Shown here one piece after another: positions 2,600-38,636 of a stretch of 64,000 bases of DNA. Where the stretch lies: assembly GCF_003945385.1 (NCBI RefSeq), contig NZ_AP018920.1:5828001-5892000 (forward strand). The letters run 5' to 3'. Within the stretch, counting starts at the first letter, position 1, and each line of letters begins with the position of its first letter. The notes beneath the pieces are model-generated. The model made no database searches. It was given only the letters and a program-made list of their open reading frames with translations, and was not told the origin of the DNA. A program made the position numbers and the translations under genes. This stretch comes from Pseudonocardia autotrophica (GTDB taxonomy: Bacteria; Actinomycetota; Actinomycetes; Mycobacteriales; Pseudonocardiaceae).

Positions 2600-2791
2600 T
2601 CAGGACGTGCCCGGAACCGGCAGCGGCTCCAGGTCGGGCACCGGCACCATGTCCGGTGTGGTGATCAGCAGCGACGCGATCAGCGCCAGGATCATCACCA
2701 GCATCACGGTGATGATCAGCGCCTTGCCCCGCCTGCTGCGGCGGGTGGGTGACCGGCCGCGGGCCACCCGGGTCCGGCGGCGGCGGGCCAT
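2600..2791 (-). CDS. Small single-pass membrane protein between two ParA-like ATPases
   Basis: A 63-residue protein. A very basic N-terminus (about 12 Arg/Lys in the first 26 residues) is followed by one hydrophobic segment near residues 26-46 (ALIITVMLVMILALIASLLI) and a short Pro-rich tail. The charge pattern predicts a cytoplasmic N-terminus and an outside C-terminus. Its ATG overlaps the stop codon of the upstream ParA-like gene (TGATG), which implies translational coupling and supports it being a real gene. I do not recognise a family. By position it could be a membrane anchor or partner for the flanking ATPases (inference). Confidence 0.6.
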   Translation of the reverse strand: MARRRRTRVARGRSPTRRSRRGKALIITVMLVMILALIASLLITTPDMVPVPDLEPLPVPGTS

Positions 2792-4008: not shown

Positions 4009-4326
4009 GTCGGCGTATCCCCCCAGATCGCGCCTGTACCGGCTCTCCCCCAACGGATGGCCCGCTCTTGCGCACCAACGCTTCGGAGATCATCGATGGG
4101 ATGTTTGTACGATATTCGCGCCGTGCGTGTCCACCATTCGTCGGCTCGGACCGCGGCCCGACGGTCCAACCCGGAGCACGCCGTCGTGACCGGGTCGACC
4201 GGTGCTCCACCGGCCCGGCCGGGCCCGCCGGGCCGTCCACCCCGGCCACCCGCGCACAGACCCCCGCGCGGGCGCCGGTCGACGCCCGCCCCGGACGGTC
4301 ACCGATCGACTCCGAAGTGGTGAGCA
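4009..4326 (-). other. Gap between giant gene and ParA-like gene; possible promoter
   Basis: No convincing gene. A GTGATG start overlapping the giant gene's stop opens a 121-codon frame (3965-4330), but its product is low-complexity and unlike any family I know. The stretch about 4085-4127 is unusually AT-rich for this genome. On the minus strand it contains TATCGT and TACAAACAT, so it is a plausible promoter for the ParA-like genes. Confidence 0.4.
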
Positions 4327-7300
4327 TCACAGTTCCTCCGAGCCCTGTCGCCGCTGCTGCGCCGGGGTCGTGACGCCCGCGCCGGGATCGCCGGGCAGTG
4401 TCACCAGCGCGGCCGTGGCGTCGTCACGGCGGCCCGCGTCGCGGGCCGCGGCGATGAGCGCGGAGACCGAGCCCGCCGGGTCGTCGTGCCGGATCAGGTC
4501 GGCCACCGGCGTCCCGCGACGCTCGATCGCCGACCAGGCGCCGTCGGTGAGCAGCACCAGCGTCCCCGGGCCGGAGACCTCGTGGGTCGAGGTGACCGCC
4601 CCGGACCGGCGGTCGGCGCCCAGCCAGCGGGTCAGGATCCCGCCCCGCAGGTGCGGGGCGTTCAGCGCCTGCGCGGCTCCGCCCCGCGGGACCCAGTAGG
4701 CCTGGACGTCTCCCACCCAGGACACGGAGATCGTGGCGGCGGCCGCACCGCTGTGCGGCGCCACCCGGGCGACGCCGAGCGTGGTCGCCGGCGCCCGACG
4801 CCCGCGGGTGCCCGCGCCGAGCCTGCGGACCTGGACGTCGGCGGCGGCCACCGCGGCAGCGGTGTCGGCCCCGGCACGCAGCGTGCCGGCCGCTGCGGTC
4901 ACCGCGACCCGGGCGGCCTCCTCGGAGCGGGGGGTCGAGGAGAGACCGTCGGCGAGCACCGCGATCCCGTCACCGGCGACGGTCGCGGCGTCCTGGTTGG
5001 GCCGGTGGGTGAGCCCGCCGCTGGTGCGGGCGGCCGCCGGCAGCGGCCCGGCCACCTCGACCAACCCGCCCCCGCGACGATCGGGCAGCACGGTGGCGCG
5101 GCCGTCGGCGGGGTCCGGGCGGCTGCCCGGGCCGAGCTCGGTACCCAGCCGCTCGTGCGCGACGAGCGCCATCGCCACCCGGCGTGTCCCGCCGAGCGTG
5201 CGGTCCAGCTGAGCGGCCCGCGCATGCCGCACGGCGGCGCTCAGCACCCGCAGCGCGGCCACGGCGTCGGCCACCACCGGCTCCGAGCGGTCCCGTGTGA
5301 GCGCGGCGGTCACCGTGCGTGCCCGGGCGACGGCCTCGGCCAGCTCGTCGGCGGCCGGCGGGTGCACCGGATCGGCGCCGGGGCGACGGGCCAGCGCGGC
5401 CCGCGCCGGAGCGAGCAGTCGCAGCTGGTGGTGCGCGACGATCTCGGCATGCCGGCCGGCCCGCTTCGCCTCGGCGAACCGGGCATGCGCGGCGCCGATC
5501 GCCTCGGCGAGTGCGACGTGCGCGTCGACCGCGGCGTCGACCGCGGCGGACCGGGCCGCCGCCGTGATGGCGGCCTGCGAGCCGAGCGGGCCGTGCCGGT
5601 CGGCGGCAGCGGTGTGCCGGGCGCCGGCCCGATCGGCCCGCCGGTTCGCCGCGAGCGCCGCGGCGACGGCCGGGGCCAGCTCGGCACGCACCGAGCGGAC
5701 GCTGGGGACGGTGCGCGCCGAGCGCTCCCGGTGCCGCGGCCCCGCGGTCGGGGCCGGTGCGCCGGCATCCGCGCCGGTCGGGGCGGGGCCGGCGGACTCC
5801 GGATCGGTCGGGTCCGGGACGGCGGCCGCGCCGGGATCGGCCGGCGGGCGGCGGACGGCGCCCAGTGGGGTCGCCCCGGACCGCCACCACTCGCCGGCCA
5901 GTGCCGGGCCCCGGCCGACGATGTTGCGCAGCCCGTCGAGCGGGTGGCGCACCACCAGTGCTCCGGCGCGCAGGACCTCCACGAGCTCGCGGCGGGTCCG
6001 CTCCCCCGCCGGACCGGCCGACCACGCCCCGGATGCTCCCCGGTCCGGACCGGGCGCAGCGAGAGCCTGGTCGGGGGCCGTCCGCAGCGCGTGCCGCAGC
6101 TCCCGCGGAGCCCGCTGCCACCAGGCCCGCAGCTCGGCGTCCGCGCGGTAGCCCGCTACGGCGTCACCGGTCACCAGCCCGTCGCGGGCCAGTCCGGCCA
6201 GCGCCGTCCGCACCGCGGGGTGCCGTCCGCCGTAGCGGTCCAGATAGCCCCGCACGGTCAGCGCCGCAGGCTCCCCGGCCAGCGTCAGCAACACCTCGGC
6301 CGCGTACGGATCCACCGTGGACAGCTCTGCTGCGGACCGCTCTGTTGTCGACGGCCCCCTGTCACCCGAGCCCCGTGCGGCGATCCACGCCCAGCGTCCG
6401 CGCTCGTCGCGCCGGTCCCGCAGCCGCTCGGTCCACCGGCTGCGCCGGGCCACCACCAGCTCACCGGCCCGGCCGAGCAGCCCGAACACCGCGACCACGC
6501 CGGCCCGGTCGGCGTCGGCGAGCCCCGGTCGCGGCACCCCGTCGAGCAGCGCGTGCCGCCGGTCGTCGACGAACCGGACGACATCGTGCAGCGGGTCCGG
6601 ATCGGCCTTGCGGCTCTTCTCCCGGGCGCGCCGTTCGTCCAGGTCGGTACGGGCGTTCAGCAATGCCCGCTGGTCGCCCCGTCCGTACCGGGTGAAGTCC
6701 TCGACCAACGCGTGCACCAGGTCGCTCTGCGCGTCCAGGTGCGTGCGGCGCAGCGACCGCCTGCGGTCGGCCTCGGCGACGAACCGCGCGACCGCACGGG
6801 CGGAGCCGGGACGCTCACCGCCGCGGCGGTCCGCCACCGTCTCGGCGACCTCGACGACGATCGACACCGCGGCCCCGAGTCCGGGGTGCCCGTCGAGCCC
6901 GTCGATCGCGCGCAGCCGGTCCGCCAGCACCGGCAGCGCGGCCTCGGCGCTCAGCACCTGGTGCTCCTCGCGGGCCGCGGCCGCGGCCCGCTCGGCATCG
7001 CGCAGGCCGCCGATCGGTGCGACGTCGCTCGGCTCCGCCGGGCGCAGCGCCACCCCGTGCCGGTGCGCCCGGGCGGGCAGCACGGCGAGTCGCCAGTCGA
7101 CCTCGGTGACCAGGCGGCCGACCAGGGTGGCGCGCTCCATCGCCGACAGCGTGTGCAGCGACCGGCCGGGCACCGGGTCGCCGATCGCTCCGAGCATCCG
7201 GCGCAGGTCGTCGTGCAGCAACCGGGCGGCGTCCACGGTGCGCCACGGCCCGGGCAGCAGCGCCCGGACCCGATTCCATCCGGTCGGGCCGCGCGCCGGG

Positions 7301-9250
7301 TCCACCCCGCGGGCCGGCTTCTTGTCGGCGTCCGCGTAGTTGATGTTGGTCCGGTCCCGCAACGCGTTCCCCGCGAGCACCACGCCGAGCGCGGTCACGG
7401 CCTGTGCCGCCGTCACGATCCAGGACCGGCCGGTGATCCAGGGCCGGACGACCAGGTAGAGACCGGTCGCGCCGAGCATGCCGTCGAACTTGCGGAACTC
7501 GTTGTGGGTCACGTCCGGGCGCTGCAGGCCGGCCAGATTGCGGCGCAGCCACCACGCCCACTGGACTCCGGCGGGGGTGTCGGCCGTCTGCAGCCGCCGG
7601 GCGGCCCATGGGGCGAGCCGCTGCGCCACCCAGCCCGTCCCGGCCAGCACCACCGGGCCGTTCAGGTAGCCGAGCAGTGTCGTCAGGGCGAGCCCGGCGC
7701 TCCAGCTCACCGGGCCGGACGCCGCGGAGGAGGTCCCCAGCGTCAACGCGAGCAGCGCGGCGGGCAGCGCCCACAGGCCGGCGCTGATCGACTCGTAGAC
7801 CCGGTTCAGGCCGACCGACTTGGTCTGCACACCGGACGCGGTCGCCGCCGACACCGAGAGGACGAGCAGATACCCGGCGTCGAACGCGGGCCCCGCCGGG
7901 AACCACGCCGCGGCGGCCAGCCCGCCCAACCCGGCCACCGACGCCGCCAGCACCGCCGAGCGCACCGCCTGCAGGCGCACCGCGACCTCGGTGCCGCCGA
8001 CGCCGGCCTTCGCCGAACGCTGCAGCACGACCCGGTAGACGATCGCGGCGACCAACGCCGCCCCGAACACGCGTGGCTGCGCCCGCTCCCAGACCGCGGT
8101 GGCGCCGCCCGCAGCGGCCATCCCGGTCACCAGCAGCACACCGGCGAGGGCCCCGGTGGCCCCGGCGAGCAGTGCACCGCGCAGCGGCGGGGCCCGGCCG
8201 TGGCGCACCCACCGCAGCATCCGCAGCGCCAGCGTCGCCGACGTCACCAGTGACGCGCCGGCCGCGACCGCGCCGACGGCGGGCCAGCCGACGAGCACTG
8301 CTGCCACCGCGGCCCCACCGGTCGTCCCGGCCAGCCCGGCCAGCGTCCGAGCCGCCCGCGCCCGGTGCGCCACGACGTCGACGATCACCGGCCTGCGGTC
8401 CCGCCACCCGGCCACCCGGTCGGCCGCCCACAGCGCCGCCACCGCCGCTCCGGCCACCGGGCCGCGGCCGCGGGCCGCCGCGACGACGGGCCCGGCCCGG
8501 CCGTCGGCCGCCGCCGCACGCACGATCGCGTGCAGCGCCGCCCTGGCGGTGTCCACCGCGGCGGCCGCCGTGGGCACCGTGGACTGCCTGGGCGCGATGG
8601 GCGCGGTGCTGTGGCCGGCCCCGGTGAGGTCGCGTGGGCTGTCCGCGGCCCGCTGTGCGGCCCGCAGGTCGTACGCCGCAGCCGCCACGGCGAGTCCGTC
8701 GATCGTGTCGCGCACCGGACGCCGCGGCGGGTCGGGCAGCACCCGGTCACGGACACCGCCCGCGAACCTCTCGAGCGCATCGAGCCACCGCTCGACGGGC
8801 GTCCGGGTGCCCAGCAGCCGGGCGGTCCGCGGGTCGAGCCCGCGCAGCGCGGCCACCGCCGCCCGGGTGGTCCCGGTGTCCCAGCGCTCGCCGGTCCGGC
8901 CGCTCCAGTCGCGCACCGCGGCCGTCGCACCGGCCCCGGTGCGTCCCGCCCGGACCAGCGCCCGGACCGTCTCGTCGGTCCGGCCGGGCCCACCCGGTCC
9001 GGCCCGGACCGCAGCCGCCGTCAGCTCGGCGAGCCGCACCGTCACCGGCGACGGCGGCGTCCCGGGCTCCGGCCACATCGCGTTGATCAGGGCGAGCGCG
9101 CGGGCCCGAGCCGCGGAGTCACGGCCACCGCGACCGGTCCCGAGCTCGACCGGCCTCGGCATCTGCGGCAGTGCCAGCCAGGCCCGTGCGGCCTGCGCCG
9201 CCGGGCGGGCAGCCGCGGCCGCCGCCCGCAGCTCGGCCCCCGTGGCCGCG
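4327..9250 (-). repeat. Giant protein, module copy 2 (PP2C motifs retained)
   Basis: Residues about 6900-8540. In order: RALALINAMWP helical unit (near 6956), membrane block (about 7200-7520), NEFRKFDG (near 7485), RDRTNINYADA, LAGEPAALTVRGY (near 7900), HPLDGLRNIVGRG (near 8010) and a PP2C-like domain (about 8306-8516) with Asp-bearing motifs at RPNQDA, ADGLSS, WVGD, LLTDGAW and RRDDAT. It matches copy 1 in the same order at a distance of about 1,830-1,960 residues. Confidence 0.7.
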
Positions 9251-12200
9251 CCCCGAGCGGCCTCGGCCCGCCAGCTCACCCGGCTGCCCCGTGCTCCGTC
9301 GGCGGGGCGGCCGGCCCGGCTGAACAGTGCCGCGTTGTCGTGCGCGTGCCTGCGCACCGCCCGCTCGGACTCCTGACCCCGGGCGGCACTCCGCCGGGCC
9401 CGCTCGCGCGGCGGGCCGTCCCCGATCGGCAGCGCCGCCTCCGCCTCCTGCCGCAGGTAGCGGCCGGCGGCACGGTCACGCAACGATCGGTACATCGTGT
9501 CCCGCAGCGTGTAGCGGGCCAGCTCCCGCCCCGACGCGGGGCGCCCGAACAGGCTCAGCCCGCTCCGGTCGATGGCCGCCCGCAGCGGCCCTGCCGGCGC
9601 GGCACCGAACCCACCGGTACCGGCCGCGGCACGGCTCGCTTCCCCGGAACCACCTGTGGCCCGGCCTGCGTCGCCGGAGCCACCCGCGACCCGACTCGCG
9701 TCACCGGGACCACCCGCAGCCCGACCTGCGTCGCCGGAATCGCCCGGGCCGCTCGCACCATCGGGATCGGGTGCCGCCGGGGTGGCGCCCGGTGTACCCG
9801 GACCGCGACCGCCCGGGCCACCGCCACCCGGCCCGGCGGGTGCGCCGGACGACGGCTCGTCCCCCGGCCCGTCATCGCGGCGGCCCGCACCGTGCACGGT
9901 CAACGCGGCCGCCACCCCCGGCCGGACGGACGCCCCGAGCAACGTCGCCACCGTCGCCCCCGCGTTCCCGGACTCCACGAGCGGGGCGAGCGACAGGCCG
10001 AGATCCTCGATCGCCGCGGCGGTCCATCCGCTCAGCACGAGCACCGTGCCCCGGCCGGTCACGTCCTGCTCGACGGTGCGGGCCCTGGCCGCGCCGTCGG
10101 GGAGTGCCGGTGCGTCGACGCCCAGCCAGCCGGTCAGCACGCCGGAGTGGCCGTGGCCCGCTTCGAGCAGCGTCGCGTCGCCGCGCTCGGGCACCCAGTA
10201 GACCCGCAGGTCACCGACGACGGCGGCCGTCACCGTCGCTCCGCCGCGGCGCGGGATCACCCGCACGGCCGCGATCATCGCGCGCGGGACCACCGACGCG
10301 GGCCTCGACCGGCCCGGATCGGCGGGCACGATGCCACCGCTGACCGCGGCCTCGGCCGCCGCCACCGCGGCAGCGAGGCCGCCCGCCGGATCGCGGGTCG
10401 TCCCGCTCGGGGCGGCGGCAGCAAGCCCCGAGCCCCGGCCCAGCACCGCGCGGGCCGCCTCCGCGGCCGCCGACACAGCAGGCGAGGAGTCCCCGGCCCC
10501 CGGCAGCCCGGTCACGACGACCAGCCCGTCGCGGGCCGTCGACACACGGGCGGTGATCTCCCGTCCGAGCAGGCCCGACCCGACCAGCGACGACGTGCGC
10601 AGCCGGCCGTCGCCGTCGACCGGGGCCGCGGTGGGCAGCAGCGACGGCGCCCCGGCGGCGTGCAGTCGTGTGACCAGGCGGTCCCCGAGGAGGATCGCGA
10701 CGCGCAGCTGCGCCGACCCGACGAAGGTCTGCCGGTGCGCCACCTCATCGGCGCGGGCCCTGATCTCGTGCAGATCGCGCAGCACGCGGGCGCCCTCGCC
10801 GACCGCGCCGGGCCGGTCGGCGTCGAGATCGGCCAGCACCGCCCTGGCCCTCGCGATCGTGTCCGGCAGCAGCTCGCGGACCGGGACCTCCCGCGGCGTC
10901 GCGCCGACCCGGCGGGCCAGCACCGCCTCCGCCGCGTCGACGGCCTCCTGCCGGTGGTGGCTGCGGACCTCGCCGCGGGGTTCGCCGAGCGCGGCGAGCC
11001 GCGCGACCTCGGTGCGGACCCGCGCCAGCTCGGACCGGAGCACGGTCATCGCCGCGACCTCGGCGGCCGAGGCGGCCCGGGCCTCGGTGGTGGTCCGCAG
11101 CGGTGGTCCGCGTGGGCCGCCGGCCATGGACGTGAGCAGCCGGCGGATCACGTCGTCGCGGAGCCGGTCGGCGTACCGCTGTGCCAGGAGCGCGGCCTCG
11201 GTGGCCGCGGTGAGCCGGGCCAGCACCGTCCGTGCGTCGGCGGGTGCCGGGGCTGCCGCACGTCCCGTCGTCGCGGAGCCCGGCGGCACCGACACGGTCG
11301 TCCCCCGGCCGGCCGTACCCGGGTCGGCGGCACCCGGCTCGGCGGACGACCGGGCCGGGGGCCCGGCGCGGACCGCGCCCGGGCCGCGGTGCGCCGGCCA
11401 CCACCGGACGGCCCGGGTCGGCGCCTGGAAGATCACGTTGCGCAGCCCGTCGACCGGGTACCGGCCGGCGAGCGCCGCGCCCCGGGCCAGCTCGACCAGA
11501 ATCCGGTGCCCCCGCTCGGCGACCGGCAACGACGTCCAGCCGTCCTGCTCGATCGTCGGGGCCGGAGCCGGTGCGGGATCCGGGCCGGACCGCTCGCCCA
11601 GCAGCTCGATCCCCGACGAACCGGCGGCTCCGAGCAGGCCGGCCCGCAGCGCCGCGCGGAAGACCGGCGGCGCCTTCCGCCACCAGGTCCGCAGCTCGGG
11701 GAGCACGCGGTATCCGGCCTGCGGGTCCCCGACCAGCAGCCCCCGGTCCCGCATGCTCTCGAACAGCTCCTGCGCCGTCGCGCCGAAGCGCTCCGTATAG
11801 GCCTCCGCGGTGAGCCGGGCCGGCTCACCCGCCAGGTTCGCCAGGACCTGCAGCTCGGGCGGGGCAGCAGGCGTCCCGGCCCGGCCGCCCTCGGTCCACC
11901 GGAGATGCTCGGCACGCTGGTCGCCCCGCCGGGCGGCGATACCGTGCCGCCGGATCCGGACGGCCTCACCCGCCCGGCTCAGCACCGTCAGCGCCCGGGC
12001 CGTCCGATCCCGCTGCTCGTCGTTCCAGCGCCGTCCATCGGCGTCGGCGCGCGGGCCCGACCGCCGACCGCCGACCGCGGTCAGCCGGTCGGCCAGCAGC
12101 TGGAGCGCGTTGTGCAGCGGATCGGGATCGAGCTTGCGCAGCGCCTCCATCGCGGCGCGGCCACGCGCACTCTCCAGCGCTGCGTCGACATCGCGGTACC

Positions 12201-24200: not shown

Positions 24201-27200
24201 CCGCACCGTCAGCCGGGGGCTGCTCACCGGACAGGCTGCGTGCCGCGCCCTCGCCGGTCGAGGCGACCGACACCGTCCGCGGGGCGCACGTCCCGCCACC
24301 GGCCACGCACGACGCCTGTGCCGACGACTCCCGCACCCCACCCGAGGCCGGGTCGTGGCCGGCCGCCGAGCTCGATGCCGCCCCGGCGCACCGAGCCGCG
24401 CCGGTGCAGTCGACCTGCGCCGAGGACCGCGACACCGCGGACGGCCCCGCGCCGGGCTGCTCCCCGTCGAGCACCACGTCCGGCCCGGACGACGACCGCG
24501 ACGACGACTGCGCCCCGCATCCGCCTTCGGTCACCCGGCACTCACCGGATCCGCTGCTGGTCCGCGCCCGCCCGTCGTCGAACCCGGCGTCCGAGGCCGA
24601 CACGCTCGTCCGCACCGAACCCGAGCATTCCACCGCACCGGCCACGCAGTCCAACGAGGAGTCCGCACGCGCCGTGCTGACCGGACCGCCCACCGTTGCG
24701 GCCGGGTCGGTGTCCCACCAGCGGACGACGGCCGGGGCAGCACCGGTCGTCGACTCCGAGCGCGCCGAACACCCACCGGCGCGGGTGTCGCACTCCGACG
24801 ACCCCGACGCCCGAGTCCGCTCCCCCGCGCCCAGCTCACCGGACTCCACGTCCAACACCGGGTCCCCGGCACCGCTGCTCACCGTCCGGGTCGTCCCCGC
24901 GCCGTCACACCCGTCCGCACCGTCGCAGTCGACGGTCACCAGCGCGCGGCTCGTCGTGTCGGTCGCCGGGCCGGCGGACCCGCCCCGGCCCGGCCACCCG
25001 GCCTGCGCCACGCGCGGCGCCGAGTCCGACGAGACCTCCGCGCCGCACCGGCCGTCGGTCACCTCGCAGTCGGCGTCGCCCGTGGTCGAACGCTGCACCG
25101 GCTCCGCGCCGTCGACGGCCACCGAGCCGGACGCCCGCGTCTGCGACTCGCCCGACCCCGAGCAGCCCGCGAGCCCGGCACAGTCCACTCCGGTCCGTGC
25201 CTGGGCGCGACCGTCGAGATCGTCCGCCGCGATCTCCCTCGCCAGGAAGGCCGGCACTGGGGCGGCGGCCGGCGGCTCACCGGTCTCCGCGGCGGCGGCG
25301 ACGTCGCACCCGCCGGCGGTGACCGTGCACTCGGCCGTTCCCGACGACGACGCGCGGCGGGCGTCCGGCGTGCTCGACGCCTCGGCGCCGGGGGCCGTGG
25401 ATCGGGAGTCGCCGTCGGCCTCGACGCTCGCGTTGCCCGTGCACTCGTCGGCCCCACCGCAGTCGACGGTGGCGGCACCGGCCGCCGGGGTGTGGCGGTC
25501 GCCCGCCGTGGCCTCCGCGGTGACGCTGCACCACGGGCCCTCGCACTCCGCCGATGCCTCGGCCTCGCCGGTCCGGCGGTCCGCCTCGGCGACCCCGGTG
25601 AGCGACCGGTCACCACCGGCGGTGACCTCGCATCCGGGGCCGGTGCAGTCCGCGCGGGCGTCGGAACCCGACGCCGCGGCGGTCAGCCGGCAGTCACCGT
25701 CGGTCGGGTCACACACGGCGGACGCCGCACCGGACGTCTCGGTGGTCGATCCGGCGGTCGTCCCGGTCCCGGTCCCGGCCCCGGTGTCCTCGCCGGACGA
25801 GCCGGCGTTCCCGGCACACCGCCGCGAGTTCCCGTCGAGGGTGCAGGAGGCCGACGCCCGGTCGGTGCCGGAACCGACCGATACCCCGCAGGACGACACC
25901 CCGGCCAGTGCCCGGCAGTCGTCCTGCTCGATCGCCGGCTCTGCGCCCGGGCGTCCGCCGGCCGCGTGCTGCCACACGTTCCGGTCGCCGGTCCCCTCGC
26001 CGCTGTTCGCCCTCGGCGCGTCCGTGCCGGTTCGCTCGCCTGCGTTCTCGCCCGACGCATCCGTGCCGGATCCCTCGCCTGCGTTCTCGCTCGTCGCATC
26101 CGTGCCGGATCCCTCGCCGGGCGCCCGGCCGGCGCAGGACGCGAACGCCCCGCTGGTGGTGCAGCCCGCCGCCGTCTCGCCGTCGAGGTGCACGCCGGTG
26201 TCGTGCCCGGTCGCCGCGGCGAGCCGGTCGGTGTCGTCGTAGACCTCTCGGGCCCGCTCGGCGTGCGCGGCCTCCTGCTCGGCGACGACGTCCTCGTCGA
26301 GGGTTCCGGCCTCGACCCGCTCGCGCTGCGTCTCCAGACGCGCGGCGTCACGGTCGAGCTCCCGGTGTCCTTCGATCACGCCGTCGACCAGCTCGGCGCG
26401 CTCCGGCGACAGCCGGGCCTCGTCGTCGGCGACCTGCTGTTCCAGACGGCGCTGGGCCGCCCGCTGCTCGTCGTACTCGTCCTGGGTGGCCTCGCCTGCG
26501 CGCACCTCGTCGCGCAGCTCGGCCAGCTCCTCGCGGCCGTGGTCGGCCGCGATCCGCCCCTCCAGAACCCGCTCCGTCCGTGCCGCGGAGTCGTCGTAGA
26601 AGTAGTGGTTCCCGTCCTCGTCGAACGCGATCCCGAAACCACCGTACCCATGTGGGGGGCCGCGTTCGGACACCGACCGGTCACGCCCGGCGCACCCCTC
26701 GGCCCGGTCCGCGCACGCCGTTCCGCGCGCCCACCGGTCGCCCAGCAGCTCCGTGCCAGGGGCGTAGTCGGCGATCGGCTCGCCGTCGCCGGGGTCGGCC
26801 GGTCCGTCCCGCTCGTCCGGTCGGGGCGCCGGCACGGCGTTCGGCAGCTCCGGTGCCCCGGTCGCGCCACCCGCACGCTGCGGATCGATGTCGGCGGCCC
26901 GGTCGAGCGCATGCAGTGCGATGCGGAACCCGGCGTCGACCGCGCCGGCAGCCAGCTCCACGACCGCGCCGGCGTTCGGCAGCCCGCTGCGCGCTGCCCA
27001 GTCGCCGGCTCGTTCCAGTGCCTCCCCGGTGGACGCACGGACCGACTCGACCGCCTCCGCGGCGCGTGCCACGTCGCGCGACGTCACCGCCGAACGGTCC
27101 GCGCCCTGGTGCGCCGGGTCCACGACGTGGGCCCGCTCCATCGGCGGTGCGGACGGGTTCGGCGGGTCGACGACCGTGTTCTCGCCCGGCGACCGGAAGT

Positions 27201-29949
27201 CGGCGTCGGGGAACCGTTCCTGCCATGCGTCTGCTGTGTCCCGCGCCTCGCGGACCCGGTGCCACCATCCGTCCCGCGCCTCGCCGGCCCGGTCCATCGC
27301 CTCAGCGGCCCGGTCCATCGCCTCGCCGGTCCGATCGGTCACCTGTCCGGCCTGATCGGTCGCCTCGCCGGCCCGGTCGATCATCCGCCCGGTCCGGTCC
27401 AGCAGCTGGCCGGTTCGGTCCATCACCTGGCCGGTCCGGTCGGTCTGCTCACCGGCGCGATCCACGAGGCCGCGGGCCGCGGGGGCAGGATCCGTGCCGG
27501 TGGACACCCACCGCGCCACGTCCCGGATCATGTCCTCCGGCACGGCTCCGTCGCGGATCTCCTCGACCAGGGTGCTCGGCCACCGAGCGTCCCCCAGTAC
27601 CGCGTTCCAGACCTCGGCCGGGACGGCCCCGGAGTCCCACATCGCGGTGCCACGCAGGATCTCGTCGACGACCTGCCCGACCTGCCCGACCTGCCTCGTC
27701 AGCTCGCCGTCGCGCAGGAGCAGAGCGGCTGCCTCCATCCGGGCCTGGGGCTGCGCCTGGGCCTGGGTCCCCCGGCCGGGCCCCTCTGCTACCGCCAGGT
27801 CGGTGACCGCGCGCAGTGTCTCGCCGATCCCGGCAGGCAGCGCCTGCGCGTCGGTGGCGTGTGCCCCGTCGTACAGCTCCCGGACCGCGTCGAACAGTTC
27901 CCGGTGCTCGGACGCACCGGCCAGACGCTCCGGGTCGCGCACCACCGTATCGAGCAGCGGCCGCACCGCGGCGGAGCCCGCATCGTGGAGCCTCTCGTCG
28001 GCGACGGTCCGCCACGTCGGCGCGGTGACGTCCGTGGACAACTGCCGCGCACGATCGGCCACCTGTGCTCGGGTCTCGTCGACGGCCGCATTCGCCTGTG
28101 CGTGGGCCTCGTCGACGGCCGCGCTCACCTGGCCGAGCAACTCGTCGACGCGGTCGGTGTCGATCCGGGTGCCGTCCCGCAACAGCTCGCCGAGCTCTGA
28201 GCGGATGTCGTCGTGCGGCAGCCCCGCACCGGCTGCCCCGTCGGCGAACGTCTCGATCGTTCCCGGGTCCAGGTCGCGGATCAGCTCACCGGCCCGTTCC
28301 GCGGTCGCCGGATCCCATCCGACGGGCTTGCCGGACTCTGCCGCAGCAGGCTCCGACCGCTCAACGGCATCCTCGACGACGTCGCGGATCGCGTCGGCGT
28401 CGACCTGGCCACGGTCCGCGTCCACAGCGGCACGGATCCGCTCGGTGAGGTCCTCGCCCCGGGCGGTCGCCGCACCGGCGATCCGGTGCTGCTGCTCCTC
28501 GGTCCATTCGACCGTGCGGTCCGCGGCGGAAGCCGCGATCTCCGCACCGGCCGCGCCGTTGCTCCCGCCCTGCCCGACCCGCTCGACGGCGGCGGAGGCC
28601 CGACGGAGAGCGGACTCCACCCGTTCCCCTACGAGGTGGCCGGCCCGCTCGACGCCGCCCTCCGCGCGCTGCTGAGCCTGCTCCGACAACTCCGCGGCGC
28701 GCTGCGCTGCCGAGGCCGCGTGCTCCTCTGCTCGCTGCCGTGTCTGCTCCTCGGCGCTCGCCGCCTGCTCCACCGCGCGCTCTGTCCGCTCTTCCGCACG
28801 CTGCACGGCCGAGGCCGCCCGCTCAGCGGCGGACTCGACCCGCTCGGCGGCGCGGCGCTCGGCGGCCTCGGCCCGCTCGGCGGCCCGGCGCTCCGCGGAC
28901 TCGGCAGCCTCCGTCACGCGCCGCTCGATCTCCGTGCGGTCGACGGCAGCCGCGGTGACGTCGTCGACGACGTGCTCCACCCGGGACGAGATCCGCTCGG
29001 CGATCCCGTCGAGCTCCGGCGCCGCGTCACGGACCGCCGTCTCGACGGCCCGCTCTGCGTCGTCCCGAATCGCGCCGACGTCCACCGGCTCCGCGGAGCG
29101 GTCCGACGCGTGCAGCTCGTTCGAACCGTCCGGTCCCGGGGCGGCGTCGGAGGTCTCCGACCGGTCGGAGGTGGTGACCGACGACGTGTCGGTGGAGTCG
29201 TCACGAGCCTGACGCTCGTCGCGAACGGGCTGGGTCGTGGGCGGCTCCCGGTCCGCGGTCGCCTCGGACCCGTCCGGGGATCCGGTGCGCGATTCCGGAG
29301 TCGTGGCGGAACTGCGCTCCGACGCGGAACCGTCCGACTCGTCCGAGTCACGGAAACCGCGATCGGCGCCGGAGCCCTCTTCCGGATCCGACTTCGCGCT
29401 ACCGCTGGAGTCACCACCGCGAGGCGGAGCATCCCGTTTTCCGGAATCGCGCTCCTGGTCGGCCGACTCACCCGAGTCACCATCTTGGTCGCCTGAATCG
29501 TCTTGCCACTCATTCGAGTCGTCGGAGCCGGCATTCCACCCACCCGAATCACCGGACGCTTCGGTCCAGTCATTCGAGCCGCCGTTCCACTCGCTCGAAC
29601 CGTGCGAGTTCTCCTCGTCGTTCTCCGATTCGCCACCCCGGCCGTCCGAGTCACCGGAATCACTCCACTCACCGGAGTCATCGCTCCAGTCACCCGAATC
29701 ACCGGAGTCATCGCTCCAATCACCCGAATCACCGGAGTCCTCGGAATCCCCACCGTCGGAGTCCTCGTCGCCCGAGTCGCCCGCTGTCACGTGGGCAACC
29801 GGCTGGACGACCGCCGCACTCGACTCGGACCCGGTGGACCAGGCTGCCGCGGCCACCCCCAGCACGAAGCCGACCAGCACGACCGCACGCAGCAGGACCG
29901 CCAGGACGGTGCGGCTGCACCGTCCTGCGATCTGCACCATGCCGGTCAT
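4327..29949 (-). CDS. Giant (~8,540-aa) envelope protein with Cys-pair ladder and tandem membrane/PP2C-like modules
   Basis: One uninterrupted frame. I chose ATG 29949 (MTGMVQIAG), with GGAG seven bases upstream; an upstream TTG would only add non-protein-like residues. Layout by residue: 14-42 signal peptide or anchor; 60-180 Ser/Asp/Trp-rich acidic repeats; about 280-560 Ala/Glu/Arg heptad-like helix; further helical and Asp/Arg/Thr/Gly repeats to about 930; about 1075-3470 with more than 40 CX3-9C pairs; about 3930-4110 a segment resembling DUF4781, with a glycine-rich membrane hairpin near 4040-4090; about 4960-6700 and 6900-8540 two copies of a large module. Each module has a Trp-rich helical unit, several membrane segments (about 5350-5680 and 7200-7520), NEFRK and RDR(V/T)N(F/I)NY motifs, an LAGEPA…W segment, a PxDGLRN motif and a PP2C-like end. 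The last PP2C keeps RPNQDA, ADGLSS, VGD, TDGAW and RRDDAT; the earlier copy does not. I see no cysteine after about 3470. The function is unknown; a secreted or anchored surface scaffold with cytoplasmic phosphatase-like domains is an inference. Confidence 0.85.
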   Translation of the reverse strand: MTGMVQIAGRCSRTVLAVLLRAVVLVGFVLGVAAAAWSTGSESSAAVVQPVAHVTAGDSGDEDSDGGDSEDSGDSGDWSDDSGDSGDWSDDSGEWSDSGDSDGRGGESENDEENSHGSSEWNGGSNDWTEASGDSGGWNAGSDDSNEWQDDSGDQDGDSGESADQERDSGKRDAPPRGGDSSGSAKSDPEEGSGADRGFRDSDESDGSASERSSATTPESRTGSPDGSEATADREPPTTQPVRDERQARDDSTDTSSVTTSDRSETSDAAPGPDGSNELHASDRSAEPVDVGAIRDDAERAVETAVRDAAPELDGIAERISSRVEHVVDDVTAAAVDRTEIERRVTEAAESAERRAAERAEAAERRAAERVESAAERAASAVQRAEERTERAVEQAASAEEQTRQRAEEHAASAAQRAAELSEQAQQRAEGGVERAGHLVGERVESALRRASAAVERVGQGGSNGAAGAEIAASAADRTVEWTEEQQHRIAGAATARGEDLTERIRAAVDADRGQVDADAIRDVVEDAVERSEPAAAESGKPVGWDPATAERAGELIRDLDPGTIETFADGAAGAGLPHDDIRSELGELLRDGTRIDTDRVDELLGQVSAAVDEAHAQANAAVDETRAQVADRARQLSTDVTAPTWRTVADERLHDAGSAAVRPLLDTVVRDPERLAGASEHRELFDAVRELYDGAHATDAQALPAGIGETLRAVTDLAVAEGPGRGTQAQAQPQARMEAAALLLRDGELTRQVGQVGQVVDEILRGTAMWDSGAVPAEVWNAVLGDARWPSTLVEEIRDGAVPEDMIRDVARWVSTGTDPAPAARGLVDRAGEQTDRTGQVMDRTGQLLDRTGRMIDRAGEATDQAGQVTDRTGEAMDRAAEAMDRAGEARDGWWHRVREARDTADAWQERFPDADFRSPGENTVVDPPNPSAPPMERAHVVDPAHQGADRSAVTSRDVARAAEAVESVRASTGEALERAGDWAARSGLPNAGAVVELAAGAVDAGFRIALHALDRAADIDPQRAGGATGAPELPNAVPAPRPDERDGPADPGDGEPIADYAPGTELLGDRWARGTACADRAEGCAGRDRSVSERGPPHGYGGFGIAFDEDGNHYFYDDSAARTERVLEGRIAADHGREELAELRDEVRAGEATQDEYDEQRAAQRRLEQQVADDEARLSPERAELVDGVIEGHRELDRDAARLETQRERVEAGTLDEDVVAEQEAAHAERAREVYDDTDRLAAATGHDTGVHLDGETAAGCTTSGAFASCAGRAPGEGSGTDATSENAGEGSGTDASGENAGERTGTDAPRANSGEGTGDRNVWQHAAGGRPGAEPAIEQDDCRALAGVSSCGVSVGSGTDRASASCTLDGNSRRCAGNAGSSGEDTGAGTGTGTTAGSTTETSGAASAVCDPTDGDCRLTAAASGSDARADCTGPGCEVTAGGDRSLTGVAEADRRTGEAEASAECEGPWCSVTAEATAGDRHTPAAGAATVDCGGADECTGNASVEADGDSRSTAPGAEASSTPDARRASSSGTAECTVTAGGCDVAAAAETGEPPAAAPVPAFLAREIAADDLDGRAQARTGVDCAGLAGCSGSGESQTRASGSVAVDGAEPVQRSTTGDADCEVTDGRCGAEVSSDSAPRVAQAGWPGRGGSAGPATDTTSRALVTVDCDGADGCDGAGTTRTVSSGAGDPVLDVESGELGAGERTRASGSSECDTRAGGCSARSESTTGAAPAVVRWWDTDPAATVGGPVSTARADSSLDCVAGAVECSGSVRTSVSASDAGFDDGRARTSSGSGECRVTEGGCGAQSSSRSSSGPDVVLDGEQPGAGPSAVSRSSAQVDCTGAARCAGAASSSAAGHDPASGGVRESSAQASCVAGGGTCAPRTVSVASTGEGAARSLSGEQPPADGAAAAGEDGNSLLGGASAASAAGAALECGEGYCDGRVDSAASGTDMSVSPDPRGSYGSGACDGVSGGCRAVTNSGGSAGPDASLIAPLAEGYSTGSAVLSEGETGGPAENERTEPGPGEQQPALPAGGSPGAGSTAAPTVAGASAWSTVSATLDCSGGAGRCTGTARTAAEGTDGPDVVGDAYGGRGPPAGGSSSSSVCRSGDAACAGASTSGAGSGQVVADVLALEREALAEQTAELAERAEQDAERAERAAEAAQVAAERAEDTAERAAVRPGGSGAAGRTTEAAAGARADAHAAASDAADAAADAAAARADADAATEAADQAGELAESPVTDAPAAWSRSRATGRCEGPGCTVEVTGEAVSVPAVGAGPGGRSESAAQAVCTAGDGGCAVGADASTGLEIVTADDGAVAHTSSTEAGAELDCPDASCRGTAVADTAVAADTDGGSAAQRLLEAARTAYDASDPARPDAADSASSAEGADGADSRGGRSGPDGADSADSADGADTVRPGTAPTSLSLADGEVSCTGRTDGCRASVGTEGSITAATGDIPAVTTAATATADCTSGDAGCATRTRSATFTSDDPSGTAGRDDPADTLTEAMERGAVPARDGVAHGVATAACTSDDGGCLSGSAGFAADDTAEVTASCTGEGCTTRTDARAVHGANAARAQTDCTGGEDSCVGVSRAGAGPHGAEVSASCTGAECTHRYSAESSESSSAAGNTARANARCGSEGGDGSGWCATSAVADATPDYAMAAAVCEGSAGSGCRHSYSASSSASAGGGAATASAAGSGSGGTGAGQVMTTATADAGPGYASASASCSGAANCRYSFSATASAAASFGGNSASAFASGSGGGGQGSGGVSVSASADAGPGYASASASCSGAANCRYSFSATASAAASFGGNSASAFASGSGGGGQGSGGVSVSASADAGPGYASASASCSGAANCRHSYSATASASASDPSGSWAQAHASGSGGGGQGSGGVSVTAFATAGPGWAEAGASCSGAANCTSSYTAHAVASDSLATAPTWDEPGGVWNAHGQGTCSGSGNGSCGVAAWAQAGPGGGGGATCWGNCANFTQSGSNSFTATTPSLSEQAAAQGGGESGDRIPLDELGDAERGVGGYFDDDGNPVLIVKEEGEDPVRESCPTPCMGGATLETDGGERVSYNPYGGFSGEMPVERGSDDRDRVRGSNGVTLYRDADGNGGGRVAGAGRVIDGRTGETVVYRPTGAQQQAGAVHDYRLSTPDRGMRTRCTGPCVWAGAPQGAGSDAPRDLLVANGGWADITGRGPDGSPARIAFQGQGTFTSAEGDVVHADGFALPGRDVSTITTRGANGLPGRYAIGHGDTGFVELHEGYRVDLGSNAQRWNHGRETIDTPGGAHDVATWHAANAGNRLVVTTPDGAGFEGRIECVGACRVDVPDWYGGPGEGDVWSSMDIPVTVDGSYQPMWPAHLTASGAQDNVRWTDPWGNTVYCEPMARGCAIGQDYGPGADRGSTCFGDECRIDTAYGGTFHGEGLALHPYIDEDGTVHNLGHACVAGLDRCGARNAGDDLGWEEPSVEWQLGADPTFTRPATDSAVDAALAEELGLEPGAPLPMLDAAALADLYAEDPQAAAAYEAALPQPTGRQRTRAVLTMAGALSVRHEYLATESERDPELAAALTESRRLTDGRHLTAADERQLAPHLAVIEERIVAASDPDLARANTIVNSARAPQIGDVDSSAQGFGNEFDPADAETAMRAMDAASAPAAGAVALSPEDRAAAHAARISTVHLAGRERALERAVVAYDNRAESIGGDGAAGHAASAALDRRGAAIEAEVRSITATADRIDATRERLGAAGAAASGGDLREFRPADIEALRTAGDADLADRLEARNALQGEAEDLATMLADSGDPRQERLAGRYAELADALGVEYAILVGDGWARTPGTALGDPAYQLPSTGRKDIYLAARSAGRQAGYDGLDATESARLGRYAADLGITGSREDQLAALAVMGTAEEMLDEAQGTREVLAAGEVADLPGTIRDAVDEVGGGDASVTRIPIQFQHGQLFGTEYVYRVRSDGNPTRYVDSTGATWANSNEFLARNEIFSPDTRVLLHDDWSDDAATGVRSTAGRHLSAWERHRGKVYLGGAVIGAGALMAAPGLQGVGATTLAAVAKGGGVAVLTGTAVVGFADEGRNLMRRHGNRQSIDPRESAAARASWLSIGSTALAGGAAGSFVRAGMHSRHAATAATLPGSTAQVQRSASTALAAQTTGQRMNNAALATSGYLVTEQALGLHQNWDHMGPVQRAQGTDDLLTGVASLGAPAAIARTHGMTPQGRLQTEQAGRSRIALEHMATTGRAPRAMPSLPDPAALRRPVTATATATATATAIPRTSGAAGARSVSGVSRVAGAPGASGVTGGSGVSRATAAPPTPGALVRQASADLTAAQQGRHTPGGERRLDAAAAAYQRAQDAHHAVILDRLGHSEGARQLGRPGDVDAGRPAPGAAADPGTPGGLARMAPAARGALATMFLTGSLMVGPADIAPTAGVTGRQSLSTATVSAADPAPGPGRSAVVDRAAAAADTAASTGQRPAAAATDAGHAATGRSTGDPERPTPLQPPLRGVLWTENIRESFRPRIGPTGGARPSRPLGAGAGYDVLTMLERSSPVTIVLREQDREQFRDPVSGRLERTGRIVVRERPEGLSDQEWQWIGQHQPTRVTADGVAHYDRAHGWAARRLEAVHALNAEIASFHRARRADRSVRVTARAAADAAAVEPAAIPPALSTIRGHRRVQPGTRTSRLVERAPAEAAAALRVLRVINQAWDRAPGTAAPASTRELAGLLDRALHDGGLRPVRRLEAQVRGLLTTARGVDPARAVQRWADRHDLGWGGATATAVAAQLAALPTGTGSRLRSTDVVSRGGNPDRSARRAAVATQRGPGGDRGPLRDGGPRRGGHPDLTRERAALGIRGMRARRERDALQALFADVPGGSGSAAMPVRARQLVARQAELRAALSLDDRESARIRSRAGRPAERGARVSWRAEVAGPLARSARLRAEYARVEPAARAARVWLELPEIPRPGPVTAGLTGSEAVAAARVLGLVNALWPASEAPRPAVPALLGAIAPGHGAPVFRRLHTELRTLVGTVRAGDVGTARRAAREWATEHGLDWTGHMLGDLVAAVRELDRDTIRGLRLAPPGERWADPADRATAAGYRWAGAARADLRRGAGAAGSGLRRGTGAVHGWLRAAPDRVVRPLVDGASAGLAETGRRAAATRPVTAATTAVREGSRQAGILLTHSRAQFRRAVAAGIHGRQQEVLASRLDAERAALWDLVEQHGAHDPVGVLVESTGLDRTQVTGLLDGARVPGPADRSAAATFTEKVTEFLEPLPEFTALRTAADSLREADAEAARHIGVQRSPLGRGSAAVAGGIARLSAQGVVLGQRIHARWGISPPTADGPTRQGRLAAWRAGALGLLLGIGGAELVRAGILDALPTAGALVSVVVGVAAVRMWIGSRQARGPPSRAVVVATLYAAVAGLAPIGLAEILLGASGAAANAVPRLLAVPIQAWHVYRITVQWQSLVRDGGAEGSARTEARRSAARAATVSAFGVLGLNVVFPPGSTTGILYYAAAALVPTLVSAVQTRWAGALRISDVVVTALMVAGSLGLGVVLGSGTPAPGPWIWLLDGAAIAAFGVLSGPVLVWAHDRIVERFGPRGAARVQHAGTAAERERAWGWRLSIRGLHGADLVNEFRKLDAVVFMTAIYVLTRPMLDASSPVETGLRIAATGVGFVLVTRWRDRVNFNYGDARSQPVRTIRPARAPLGALGWLRAVLPGTRGPAALEQLHTAVQAVLPGRAGPLSRSTGQSRENLVRILADELAAGVAALPARTDVEGIRLTRAEMADPVPAALRAAERRYALAREEYQATVLRAALPVLAGHLDRLLATDSERRDRPGATDPEHRAAAGILRDALARVDGAQAGTPQAAARFRAVLEHRNLLRTEHRRIQQRLLGELLRRAGGHTGAPDAHRYRDVDAALESARGRAAMEALRKLDPDPLHNALQLLADRLTAVGGRRSGPRADADGRRWNDEQRDRTARALTVLSRAGEAVRIRRHGIAARRGDQRAEHLRWTEGGRAGTPAAPPELQVLANLAGEPARLTAEAYTERFGATAQELFESMRDRGLLVGDPQAGYRVLPELRTWWRKAPPVFRAALRAGLLGAAGSSGIELLGERSGPDPAPAPAPTIEQDGWTSLPVAERGHRILVELARGAALAGRYPVDGLRNVIFQAPTRAVRWWPAHRGPGAVRAGPPARSSAEPGAADPGTAGRGTTVSVPPGSATTGRAAAPAPADARTVLARLTAATEAALLAQRYADRLRDDVIRRLLTSMAGGPRGPPLRTTTEARAASAAEVAAMTVLRSELARVRTEVARLAALGEPRGEVRSHHRQEAVDAAEAVLARRVGATPREVPVRELLPDTIARARAVLADLDADRPGAVGEGARVLRDLHEIRARADEVAHRQTFVGSAQLRVAILLGDRLVTRLHAAGAPSLLPTAAPVDGDGRLRTSSLVGSGLLGREITARVSTARDGLVVVTGLPGAGDSSPAVSAAAEAARAVLGRGSGLAAAAPSGTTRDPAGGLAAAVAAAEAAVSGGIVPADPGRSRPASVVPRAMIAAVRVIPRRGGATVTAAVVGDLRVYWVPERGDATLLEAGHGHSGVLTGWLGVDAPALPDGAARARTVEQDVTGRGTVLVLSGWTAAAIEDLGLSLAPLVESGNAGATVATLLGASVRPGVAAALTVHGAGRRDDGPGDEPSSGAPAGPGGGGPGGRGPGTPGATPAAPDPDGASGPGDSGDAGRAAGGPGDASRVAGGSGDAGRATGGSGEASRAAAGTGGFGAAPAGPLRAAIDRSGLSLFGRPASGRELARYTLRDTMYRSLRDRAAGRYLRQEAEAALPIGDGPPRERARRSAARGQESERAVRRHAHDNAALFSRAGRPADGARGSRVSWRAEAARGAATGAELRAAAAAARPAAQAARAWLALPQMPRPVELGTGRGGRDSAARARALALINAMWPEPGTPPSPVTVRLAELTAAAVRAGPGGPGRTDETVRALVRAGRTGAGATAAVRDWSGRTGERWDTGTTRAAVAALRGLDPRTARLLGTRTPVERWLDALERFAGGVRDRVLPDPPRRPVRDTIDGLAVAAAAYDLRAAQRAADSPRDLTGAGHSTAPIAPRQSTVPTAAAAVDTARAALHAIVRAAAADGRAGPVVAAARGRGPVAGAAVAALWAADRVAGWRDRRPVIVDVVAHRARAARTLAGLAGTTGGAAVAAVLVGWPAVGAVAAGASLVTSATLALRMLRWVRHGRAPPLRGALLAGATGALAGVLLVTGMAAAGGATAVWERAQPRVFGAALVAAIVYRVVLQRSAKAGVGGTEVAVRLQAVRSAVLAASVAGLGGLAAAAWFPAGPAFDAGYLLVLSVSAATASGVQTKSVGLNRVYESISAGLWALPAALLALTLGTSSAASGPVSWSAGLALTTLLGYLNGPVVLAGTGWVAQRLAPWAARRLQTADTPAGVQWAWWLRRNLAGLQRPDVTHNEFRKFDGMLGATGLYLVVRPWITGRSWIVTAAQAVTALGVVLAGNALRDRTNINYADADKKPARGVDPARGPTGWNRVRALLPGPWRTVDAARLLHDDLRRMLGAIGDPVPGRSLHTLSAMERATLVGRLVTEVDWRLAVLPARAHRHGVALRPAEPSDVAPIGGLRDAERAAAAAREEHQVLSAEAALPVLADRLRAIDGLDGHPGLGAAVSIVVEVAETVADRRGGERPGSARAVARFVAEADRRRSLRRTHLDAQSDLVHALVEDFTRYGRGDQRALLNARTDLDERRAREKSRKADPDPLHDVVRFVDDRRHALLDGVPRPGLADADRAGVVAVFGLLGRAGELVVARRSRWTERLRDRRDERGRWAWIAARGSGDRGPSTTERSAAELSTVDPYAAEVLLTLAGEPAALTVRGYLDRYGGRHPAVRTALAGLARDGLVTGDAVAGYRADAELRAWWQRAPRELRHALRTAPDQALAAPGPDRGASGAWSAGPAGERTRRELVEVLRAGALVVRHPLDGLRNIVGRGPALAGEWWRSGATPLGAVRRPPADPGAAAVPDPTDPESAGPAPTGADAGAPAPTAGPRHRERSARTVPSVRSVRAELAPAVAAALAANRRADRAGARHTAAADRHGPLGSQAAITAAARSAAVDAAVDAHVALAEAIGAAHARFAEAKRAGRHAEIVAHHQLRLLAPARAALARRPGADPVHPPAADELAEAVARARTVTAALTRDRSEPVVADAVAALRVLSAAVRHARAAQLDRTLGGTRRVAMALVAHERLGTELGPGSRPDPADGRATVLPDRRGGGLVEVAGPLPAAARTSGGLTHRPNQDAATVAGDGIAVLADGLSSTPRSEEAARVAVTAAAGTLRAGADTAAAVAAADVQVRRLGAGTRGRRAPATTLGVARVAPHSGAAAATISVSWVGDVQAYWVPRGGAAQALNAPHLRGGILTRWLGADRRSGAVTSTHEVSGPGTLVLLTDGAWSAIERRGTPVADLIRHDDPAGSVSALIAAARDAGRRDDATAALVTLPGDPGAGVTTPAQQRRQGSEEL
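9850..15070 (-). repeat. Giant protein, module copy 1 (degenerate PP2C)
   Basis: Residues about 4960-6700. It has the same motif order as copy 2: ARVLGLVNALWP (near 4996), membrane block (about 5350-5680), NEFRKLDA (near 5640), RDRVNFNYGDA, LAGEPARLTAEAY (near 6040), YPVDGLRNVIF (near 6173) and a PP2C-like end (about 6450-6690). In that end the DGxGG site reads VTGLPG and the TDG site reads LSGWTA, so metal-binding Asp residues appear lost, while VVGDLRVYWV remains. A Gly/Pro/Ala-rich linker (9560-9900) separates it from copy 2. Confidence 0.7.
21361..21782 (-). repeat. Perfect 183-bp in-frame tandem duplication in the giant gene
   Basis: Positions 21361-21543 and 21544-21726 are identical by eye over 183 bases (61 codons). 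A third partial copy runs from 21727 until it diverges at about 21783. Each unit encodes one CSGAANC cysteine pair plus a Ser/Ala/Gly-rich spacer. More diverged units lie on both sides. Confidence 0.9.
29640..29765 (-). repeat. ~30-bp repeats encoding Ser/Asp/Trp acidic segment
   Basis: Near-identical units of the type caccggagtcatcgctccag encode repeated SGDSGDWSDD in the region just after the signal peptide of the giant protein. The repeats are in frame and look prone to copy-number change. Confidence 0.75.
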
Positions 29950-38607: not shown

Positions 38608-38636
38608 GGTGGGTCCTTCCACGGGACGGGGGCGCG

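Follow-up and report, generated by a model that had tools for sequence, protein, structure and literature searches.

Serial RGPP and RAPP motifs in a family of giant Pseudonocardia proteins suggest stop-and-go synthesis of envelope proteins

The window analyzed here, a stretch of 64,000 nucleotides from Pseudonocardia autotrophica (assembly GCF_003945385.1, contig NZ_AP018920.1, positions 5,828,001 to 5,892,000), contains a single gene for a protein of 8,540 amino acids, in which the tetrapeptide RGPP occurs at residues 1152, 2156, 5464, and 6336 and RAPP at residue 7308. Both are published ribosome-arrest motifs, and their serial occurrence, a feature absent from the initial annotation of this DNA, recurs in a family of giant proteins in the genus, where it probably couples translation to export and folding. 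An open-reading-frame scan of the window revealed a stop-free frame at 4327..30117 on the minus strand (8,596 codons when counted from its first TTG), within which the giant gene starts at the ATG at 29949, preceded by GGAG at a distance of seven bases. It should be noted that residue numbers are counted from the TTG at 30117 and that subtracting 56 converts them to numbering from the ATG. The following features were assigned, with membrane segments defined by a hydropathy threshold and not by a topology predictor:

4327..29949, minus strand: giant open reading frame, 8,540 amino acids from the ATG
29851..29907, minus strand: hydrophobic N-terminal segment, residues 71-89, signal peptide or signal anchor (hydropathy; a similar one is found in both paralogues, par1 and par2)
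26728..29820, minus strand: Ser/Asp/Gly-rich tract and Ala/Glu/Arg-rich (coiled-coil-like) tract, residues 100-1130 (sequence)
26653..26664, minus strand: RGPP site A, residues 1152-1155, 25 residues ahead of the arm's first helix (anchored alignment of the giants)
23698..26586, minus strand: cysteine arm, helical hairpins and long-strand beta arm with cysteine pairs, residues 1178-2140 (alignment A2; AlphaFold2)
23641..23652, minus strand: RGPP site B, residues 2156-2159, 31 residues ahead of GQVVAD (anchored count)
21240..21783, minus strand: three 183-bp (61-residue) tandem copies of a cysteine-pair repeat, 92% matching (repeat comparison)
17569..20967, minus strand: conserved chassis core, residues 3051-4183, a beta part (weak OspA resemblance) and a helical part (alignment A1)
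17569-18042, minus strand: sub-threshold DUF4781 (PF16013) in the chassis core, 20.1 bits versus a gathering score of 27.9
13183..13869, minus strand: membrane-like segments of module 1, residues 5417-5645 (hydropathy)
13717..13728, minus strand: RGPP, residues 5464-5467, between two membrane-like segments of module 1 (alignment)
11101..11112, minus strand: RGPP, residues 6336-6339 (alignment)
9838..10620, minus strand: degenerate PP2C copy, residues 6500-6760 (no PP2C profile match; alignment and blastp to the second copy)
7369..8343, minus strand: membrane-like segments of module 2, residues 7259-7583 (hydropathy)
8185..8196, minus strand: RAPP, residues 7308-7311, at the same place as the RGPP of module 1 (alignment)
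4330..5100, minus strand: PP2C domain (PF13672), E 2.9e-10, 40.5 bits versus a cut-off of 24

The giant frame is a real, single gene, since its third-position guanine-cytosine (GC) content is of the coding type (0.80 over the initial 500 codons, 0.87-0.94 in later blocks) and the longest stop-free runs in 30 first-order Markov sequences of equal length, read on both strands, span 531-1,233 codons. Its sole stop codon is the terminal one. Together with the long homologous frames described below, this bears out the initial annotation, which had read the region as one uninterrupted gene, although it had not named the strand. GC-rich DNA does yield long spurious frames, and the opposite strand of the window holds further frames of more than 1,000 codons. 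That several genes or a mis-assembly were read as one frame is nevertheless hardly credible in view of the Markov control, the third-position GC along the frame, and collinear homologues in several species, the matched parts of which are devoid of stops.

Most of the protein features proposed in the initial annotation were recovered as well. Repeats are present as Ser/Asp-rich and Ala/Glu-rich tracts and as the three 183-bp tandem copies, cysteine pairs extend over residues 1135-3513, the proposed membrane blocks appear as membrane-like segments, and the C-terminal module is duplicated (residues 5502-6270 versus 7346-8110, 36% identity). The predicted signal peptide corresponds to the hydrophobic segment at residues 71-89, which by hydropathy is either a signal peptide or a signal anchor. 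The phosphatase-like end was confirmed by the PF13672 match on the C-terminal piece, whereas only one of the proposed PP2C-like domains is well preserved: judged by eye in the alignment, the C-terminal copy keeps RxxNxD (from residue 8372), ADG (8389), TDG, and DD, which we take to be the metal-binding aspartate motifs of PP2C, while the degenerate first copy lacks them. As had been stated, hallmarks of nonribosomal peptide synthetases (NRPS), polyketide synthases, adhesins, and WXG100 proteins are missing, with no such profile at E 0.1 in Pfam and NCBIfam searches of the whole protein.

Structure prediction of segments, suggested as a check at that time, covered the cysteine arm and the chassis core. 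The AlphaFold2 model of the cysteine arm reached a mean predicted local distance difference test (pLDDT) of 71.0, with several blocks above 90, compared to only 58.9 for the chassis core. None of 133 Foldseek matches of the cysteine arm reached E 0.001. For the chassis core, OspA was matched at E 9.6e-4, yet the template-modelling scores were 0.09 and 0.22, and the possible resemblance of its beta part to OspA is a hint only; the DUF4781 match stays below the Pfam gathering score. The proposed envelope character is supported by the hydrophobic N-terminal segment, the disulfide-type cysteine pairs, and the membrane-like segments. The giant proteins are probably exported and membrane-inserted, with a chassis that is probably exported and disulfide-bonded. 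The finished protein might perhaps be anchored in the envelope and signal through its PP2C domain.

Two paralogues, par1 and par2, are encoded in the same genome (7.54 Mb, two contigs); their open frames span 8,635 and 9,368 codons, with 41% and 37% identity in the chassis core, respectively. Within the genus, the chassis core was matched in 22 of 62 genomes and the cysteine arm in 23 of 62, the own genome counted, and the chassis alignment matches records from Pseudonocardia ammonioxydans, P. xinjiangensis, and a metagenome-assembled Pseudonocardia genome. A family-level sample of 150 genomes yielded 2 matches, namely the own genome and one of the same genus, and an order-level search yielded 8 of 298, including the own genome, with the other 7 matched over 62-164 model positions only. 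The class-level search with the cysteine arm found the own genome alone among 345; since order- and class-level searches scored two candidates per genome, weak relatives may be missed. In other genera of the order, loci L029-L034 contain frames of 156-473 codons with a chassis match of 89-164 positions near the DUF4781-like end. A protein-database search with chassis residues 3050-4150 gave 555 candidates of similar length, none of them at E 0.001, and plasmid and phage collections contained no match to the chassis core.

The longest relatives come from genome G162, with frames of 58,228, 40,947, 28,592, and 26,771 codons and a third-position GC content of 0.88-0.93 (lengths of relatives are stop-to-stop and, therefore, slightly too long). 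Its 1.05-Mb contig G162:C3 is rich in giant genes (loci L037-L045, L125-L134, L139-L153), with the 58,228-codon frame at 815160-989843 and the 40,947-codon frame at 68607-191447, both on the minus strand. A relative at G082:C1:1142117-1151029 (L013, L014) is split over several frames and, therefore, looks decayed or mis-sequenced. In a first set of 18 frames, 15 of the 17 others share collinear segments of residues 1000-4100 with this protein by blastp with composition correction, the two exceptions being a cut frame from G162 and a frame from G082; seven frames added later match the chassis in the genus-wide chassis-core or cysteine-arm searches. The C-terminal parts differ among the giants but are shared in part, as in G155 and G183, which have the membrane/PP2C module in common with this protein. 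As judged from these alignments, the family is built from a shared N-terminal chassis of approximately 4,200 residues and a variable C-terminal payload.

When the tetrapeptides that occur at least 25 times in the variable parts of this first set are ranked by over-representation, RGPP comes first. A set of 22 frames (367,081 residues; several frames are cut by the ends of sequence stretches) was used for further counts, from which three frames of the first set had been dropped, namely two G082 frames (3 RGPP) and one cut G162 frame (2 RGPP). Here, 184 RGPP were seen versus 11.45 expected from amino-acid composition, a 16-fold excess. Clustering of the flanks left 103 unrelated contexts, with a probability of about 1e-60 for at least that many. 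In a separate count, 127 RGPP compare to 26.2 expected from a second-order Markov model, into which the motif itself enters. The excess also holds for giants that were added after the motif had been recognized, with 34 RGPP versus 1.67 expected in four cut frames and 10 versus 1.65, 9 versus 0.90, and 7 versus 0.54 in three further giants. The number of RGPP per giant ranges from 2 to 25, with 25 in the 40,947-codon relative.

Enrichment in the 22 frames extends to RAPP (65 versus 15.9, 4.1-fold), HGPP (12 versus 2.8, 4.3-fold), and RSPP (14 versus 5.7, 2.5-fold), all of which are, like RGPP, arrest-type motifs (PMC12992588), while the other 24 tetrapeptides compared show ratios of 0 to 1.13. 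These include AGPP (0.43), EGPP (0.14), QGPP (0.22), KGPP (1.07), RTPP (0.74), RVPP (0.63), and RLPP (0.76); SGPP and LGPP are also depleted and KAPP is not enriched. A DNA-level motif behind RGPP was considered and rejected, as the codons vary.

Outside the giants, the situation is reversed. RGPP has been described as the strongest ribosome-arrest tetrapeptide and, of all 160,000 tetrapeptides, as the one most under-represented across ten major groups of bacteria, a deficit ascribed to its ribosome-stopping power (PMC12992588). The genome of the window avoids it as other bacteria do, since a sample of 534 other called genes (189,320 residues) contains 1 RGPP versus 8.18 expected and 3 RAPP versus 10.95 expected (combined P 3e-5). 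In G162, 126 other genes (49,399 residues) contain 1 RGPP versus 1.84 and no RAPP versus 2.38 expected. It should be noted that the control genes were called by a simple codon-GC rule and that, on inspection by eye, some of the 4 control hits seem to come from wrong frames. An unrelated control frame of 20,756 codons (G420, from the order-level search) contains neither RGPP nor RAPP.

Two of the motifs occupy fixed places in the chassis. At site B, an arrest-type motif lies 30-37 residues before GQVVAD in all 20 giants in which this anchor is readable (of 22 frames), with RGPP in 17 and HGPP in 3. For site A, the arm's first helix served as anchor, aligned at E below 1e-10 in 21 of the 22 frames; 12-52 residues before it, RGPP was found in 16, RAPP in 3, and no motif in 2, and the flanks of this site are hardly alignable. 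Both sites sit in cysteine-rich and low-complexity stretches. In the 20 frames, the next RGPP, RAPP, or HGPP after site B follows 2,450-4,562 residues on, leaving the rest of the chassis arrest-free. The aligned place in the membrane module (residues 5464-5467 in copy 1) harbors RGPP in copy 1, RAPP in copy 2, RAPP in G155, and RGPP in G183, and a second module place (residues 6336-6339) harbors RGPP in copy 1, RAPP in G155, and RGPP in G183, having been lost in copy 2. Among aligned pairs with a flank identity below 40%, R[GA]PP is kept in 80 of 105, with HGPP in 8 more, although the pairs are not independent.

Beyond residue 4300, a membrane segment ends within approximately 30 residues upstream of 61 of 136 RGPP and 22 of 61 RAPP. 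For random positions the figure is 1,762 of 13,613, and for other xGPP/xAPP it is 25 of 169. Furthermore, the first proline is encoded by the rare codons CCA or CCT in 54 of 158 RGPP versus 95 of 1,514 prolines after glycine outside PP (p 1e-21). The gene, the family and its modular build, the enrichment in contrast to avoidance, and the conservation and placement of the motifs are all computed from the sequences. Avoidance elsewhere, accumulation and conservation in the giants, replacement at fixed places by arrest variants, and rare codons point to selection during translation.

We propose that serial RGPP/RAPP arrest checkpoints couple the translation of the giants to their export and folding, a reading to which we give a probability of roughly two-thirds. 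With a membrane segment or domain just completed, the ribosome would halt once RGPP or RAPP reaches the peptidyl-transferase center, and it would resume when the Sec/YidC machinery or the folding of the fresh segment pulls the nascent chain, such that a very long chain could be exported, oxidized, and inserted piece by piece. Ribosomes have been reported to stall at RGPP and RAPP in numerous contexts, with an arrest refractory to EF-P (Fujiwara et al. 2025, PMC12992588), and seven examples from Streptomyces lividans stall S. lividans and Bacillus subtilis ribosomes in vitro (PMC12992588). Secretion or membrane insertion releases arrest peptides that monitor localization (PMC10987492), and pulling force has been discussed as well (PMC12992588). 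Stalling in Pseudonocardia itself, release by pulling, and use in biogenesis are what we infer for the giants. The more general formulation, in which force-releasable arrest motifs that are normally purged from the proteome meter the synthesis of envelope proteins of 8,000-58,000 residues module by module, we consider evenly balanced. A variant, in which ribosome traffic is metered along a message of 26-175 kb, cannot be separated from the checkpoint idea.

Several observations weigh against these checkpoints. RAGP (1.04), RAPG (0.81), and RDPP (0.97), which are of the arrest type in some contexts, show no enrichment. TPPP (13 versus 2.8), GPPP (18 versus 4.7), and PAPP (20 versus 6.6) are over-represented too in the first 18 frames, and since such other proline-rich tetrapeptides are 3-5-fold up, the 2.5-4-fold excess of RAPP, HGPP, and RSPP carries less weight than the 16-fold excess of RGPP. 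The 58,228-codon frame is less dense in the motif (10 RGPP, 6-fold). The variable region keeps the motif in 84 of 135 aligned pairs, which are not independent, with 3 RGPP/RAPP swaps, and single sites are, therefore, dispensable. Furthermore, 75 of the 136 RGPP beyond residue 4300 do not directly follow a predicted membrane segment. The rare-codon excess is modest in comparison to other xGPP (11 of 66, p 0.0095) and not significant for RAPP (11 of 43 versus 104 of 637, p 0.14). Moreover, 25 stops in series would cripple synthesis if every stop were strong and unreleased, and an arrest motif alone has been reported as insufficient, with the neighboring N-terminal region being of importance (PMC12992588).

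Payload domains above cut-off in the relatives, which were scanned in part with Pfam, include PP2C (also in G183 and G200a), trypsin-like (G166 and par2), SecA DEAD, SecA P-loop, FHA, LysM, DUF3990, NUDIX, and amidoligase domains, whereas helix-turn-helix-type matches remained below cut-off. The SecA DEAD and P-loop pair (E 5.8e-27 and 3.1e-13) lies at L043:8598-10460 on the minus strand, at approximately residues 5330-5950 of the 40,947-codon frame of G162. One piece of par2 resembles an amidohydrolase by eye, but Pfam gave no match on it. The PP2C of G155, the nearest relative found, is degenerate, as is the first copy here. By hydropathy, the 22 giant frames contain 4 to 194 predicted membrane segments each. 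Two genes follow the giant gene:

2791..4053, minus strand: MinD/ParA-like ATPase (KGGVGKTT), directly downstream of the giant gene (sequence)
1619..2554, minus strand: second MinD/ParA-like ATPase (sequence)

Such a pair also follows par2 and the giants of G155 and G183, and thus occurs at 4 of 15 loci within 10 kb downstream, one locus offering one base only.

The motifs might also act in cleavage or in the finished protein. If the giants were polyproteins, trypsin-like proteases would cut RGPP and RAPP after the arginine and turn one gene into many envelope proteins; the arginine in every RGPP and RAPP, the position of many sites between modules (by eye), and the trypsin-like domains built into some of the giants would fit. 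The enrichment of HGPP and its replacement of RGPP at site B are at odds with such a cut, KGPP, KAPP, RTPP, RVPP, and RLPP are not enriched though they should be acceptable to a trypsin-like enzyme, a cleavage site would not require the avoidance of RGPP in other sampled genes of the genome, and the rare codons point to translation, rendering a polyprotein improbable. Selection of RGPP as a structural or ligand motif, such as a turn or a membrane-interface cap, is in our view slightly less probable still. It would be consistent with the 61 of 136 RGPP behind a membrane segment, where the positive-inside rule fits an arginine at the membrane interface, and with the near-fixed spacing of site B to GQVVAD; yet the 103 unrelated contexts include cysteine-rich and low-complexity stretches, the tolerated substitutions with A, G, and H are those of arrest motifs, and AGPP, EGPP, QGPP, SGPP, and LGPP are depleted.

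Two further explanations concern the protein as a whole. A conserved N-terminal chassis with different C-termini among the paralogues of one genome, along with DUF3990, NUDIX, trypsin, and amidoligase payloads, recalls polymorphic toxins or effectors, with the chassis displaying or delivering variable C-terminal enzymes to neighbor cells. This would be compatible with arrest, but we consider it rather unlikely, as the payloads run to thousands of residues and contain numerous membrane-like segments instead of one small toxin domain, and no Rhs, TcdB, WXG100, or HINT-type match was found (Pfam and NCBIfam for the whole protein, Pfam only for parts of the relatives). The initial annotation had instead suggested a wall-spanning scaffold that couples an outer disulfide-rich arm to internal PP2C-like domains; the arm would then signal via the membrane modules, and the MinD-like ATPases could be partners. 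The PP2C end with its kept aspartate motifs, the PP2C domains of G183 and G200a, and the two ATPase genes downstream speak for this scaffold. The degenerate first copy, the degenerate PP2C of G155, and the other payloads of the paralogues speak against it. Because the chassis carries payloads of several kinds, PP2C among them, this domain does not define the family. We regard the scaffold idea as supported in part but, on the whole, as rather unlikely.

Elsewhere in the window, NRPS-like coding was seen by eye at 49723-63998 (minus strand), adjoining a siderophore-type binding lipoprotein at 48673-49662 (plus strand). The region 34616-44954, likewise judged by eye, contains a flavin monooxygenase/old-yellow-enzyme-type fusion, an acyl-CoA ligase-like gene, a cupin, a PaaX-like regulator, and a molybdopterin oxidoreductase and resembles a cluster for aromatic-acid degradation. 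ARAGORN predictions of transfer RNAs at 22459-22546 (plus strand) and 50482-50572 (minus strand) lie inside large coding frames and are probably false positives of GC-rich DNA.

In comparison with known systems, polymorphic toxins combine a conserved N-terminus with variable C-terminal domains and occur as paralogues in one genome. The Pseudonocardia giants show the same division into conserved N- and variable C-terminus, but no known delivery module was found in this protein with Pfam and NCBIfam, and their payloads are far larger. Literature searches, which covered titles and abstract openings, with most subscription papers and bioRxiv outside reach, revealed neither a prior report of the Pseudonocardia giant family or of serial arrest motifs nor a text naming RGPP together with Pseudonocardia, and a survey of huge proteins does not contain the genus in its main text (PMC11573180). 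The closest parallel is found in the RAPP/RGPP arrest peptides ApdA, ApdP, and the products of upstream open reading frames of S. lividans, which share identical tetrapeptides and are mostly exported or membrane proteins (PMC12992588). Those peptides are small, with the motif near the C-terminus, whereas the motifs described here are spread through a giant. They are also encoded upstream of a gene thought to be regulated by them; two MinD/ParA-like genes lie downstream here, yet the last motif is more than 1,200 codons before the stop. They have an N-terminal localization signal, to which the hydrophobic N-terminal segment assigned here by hydropathy might correspond.

With respect to size, the giants resemble those of Omnitrophota, for example the protein of 39,678 amino acids with 42 predicted transmembrane helices from Velamenicoccus archaeovorus (PMC10066038), in being single giant frames with many membrane helices, and a role as envelope coat was proposed for the Omnitrophota giant frames; these belong to a different phylum, and the passages on them in that source do not mention arrest motifs. 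Apilactobacillus kunkeei likewise has several giant extracellular surface proteins (3,000-8,000 amino acids) per genome, which, unlike here, are encoded by five consecutive genes (PMC12863079). If true, the accumulation and conservation of RGPP in the Pseudonocardia giants would be, as far as the literature searches reach, the first case of serial arrest motifs within one protein, and the coordination of synthesis with export would become testable for chains that number residues in the thousands or tens of thousands. Frames of 20,000-58,000 codons from a genus with cultured species also join the known bacterial giants, among which still longer Omnitrophota genes are reportedly found.

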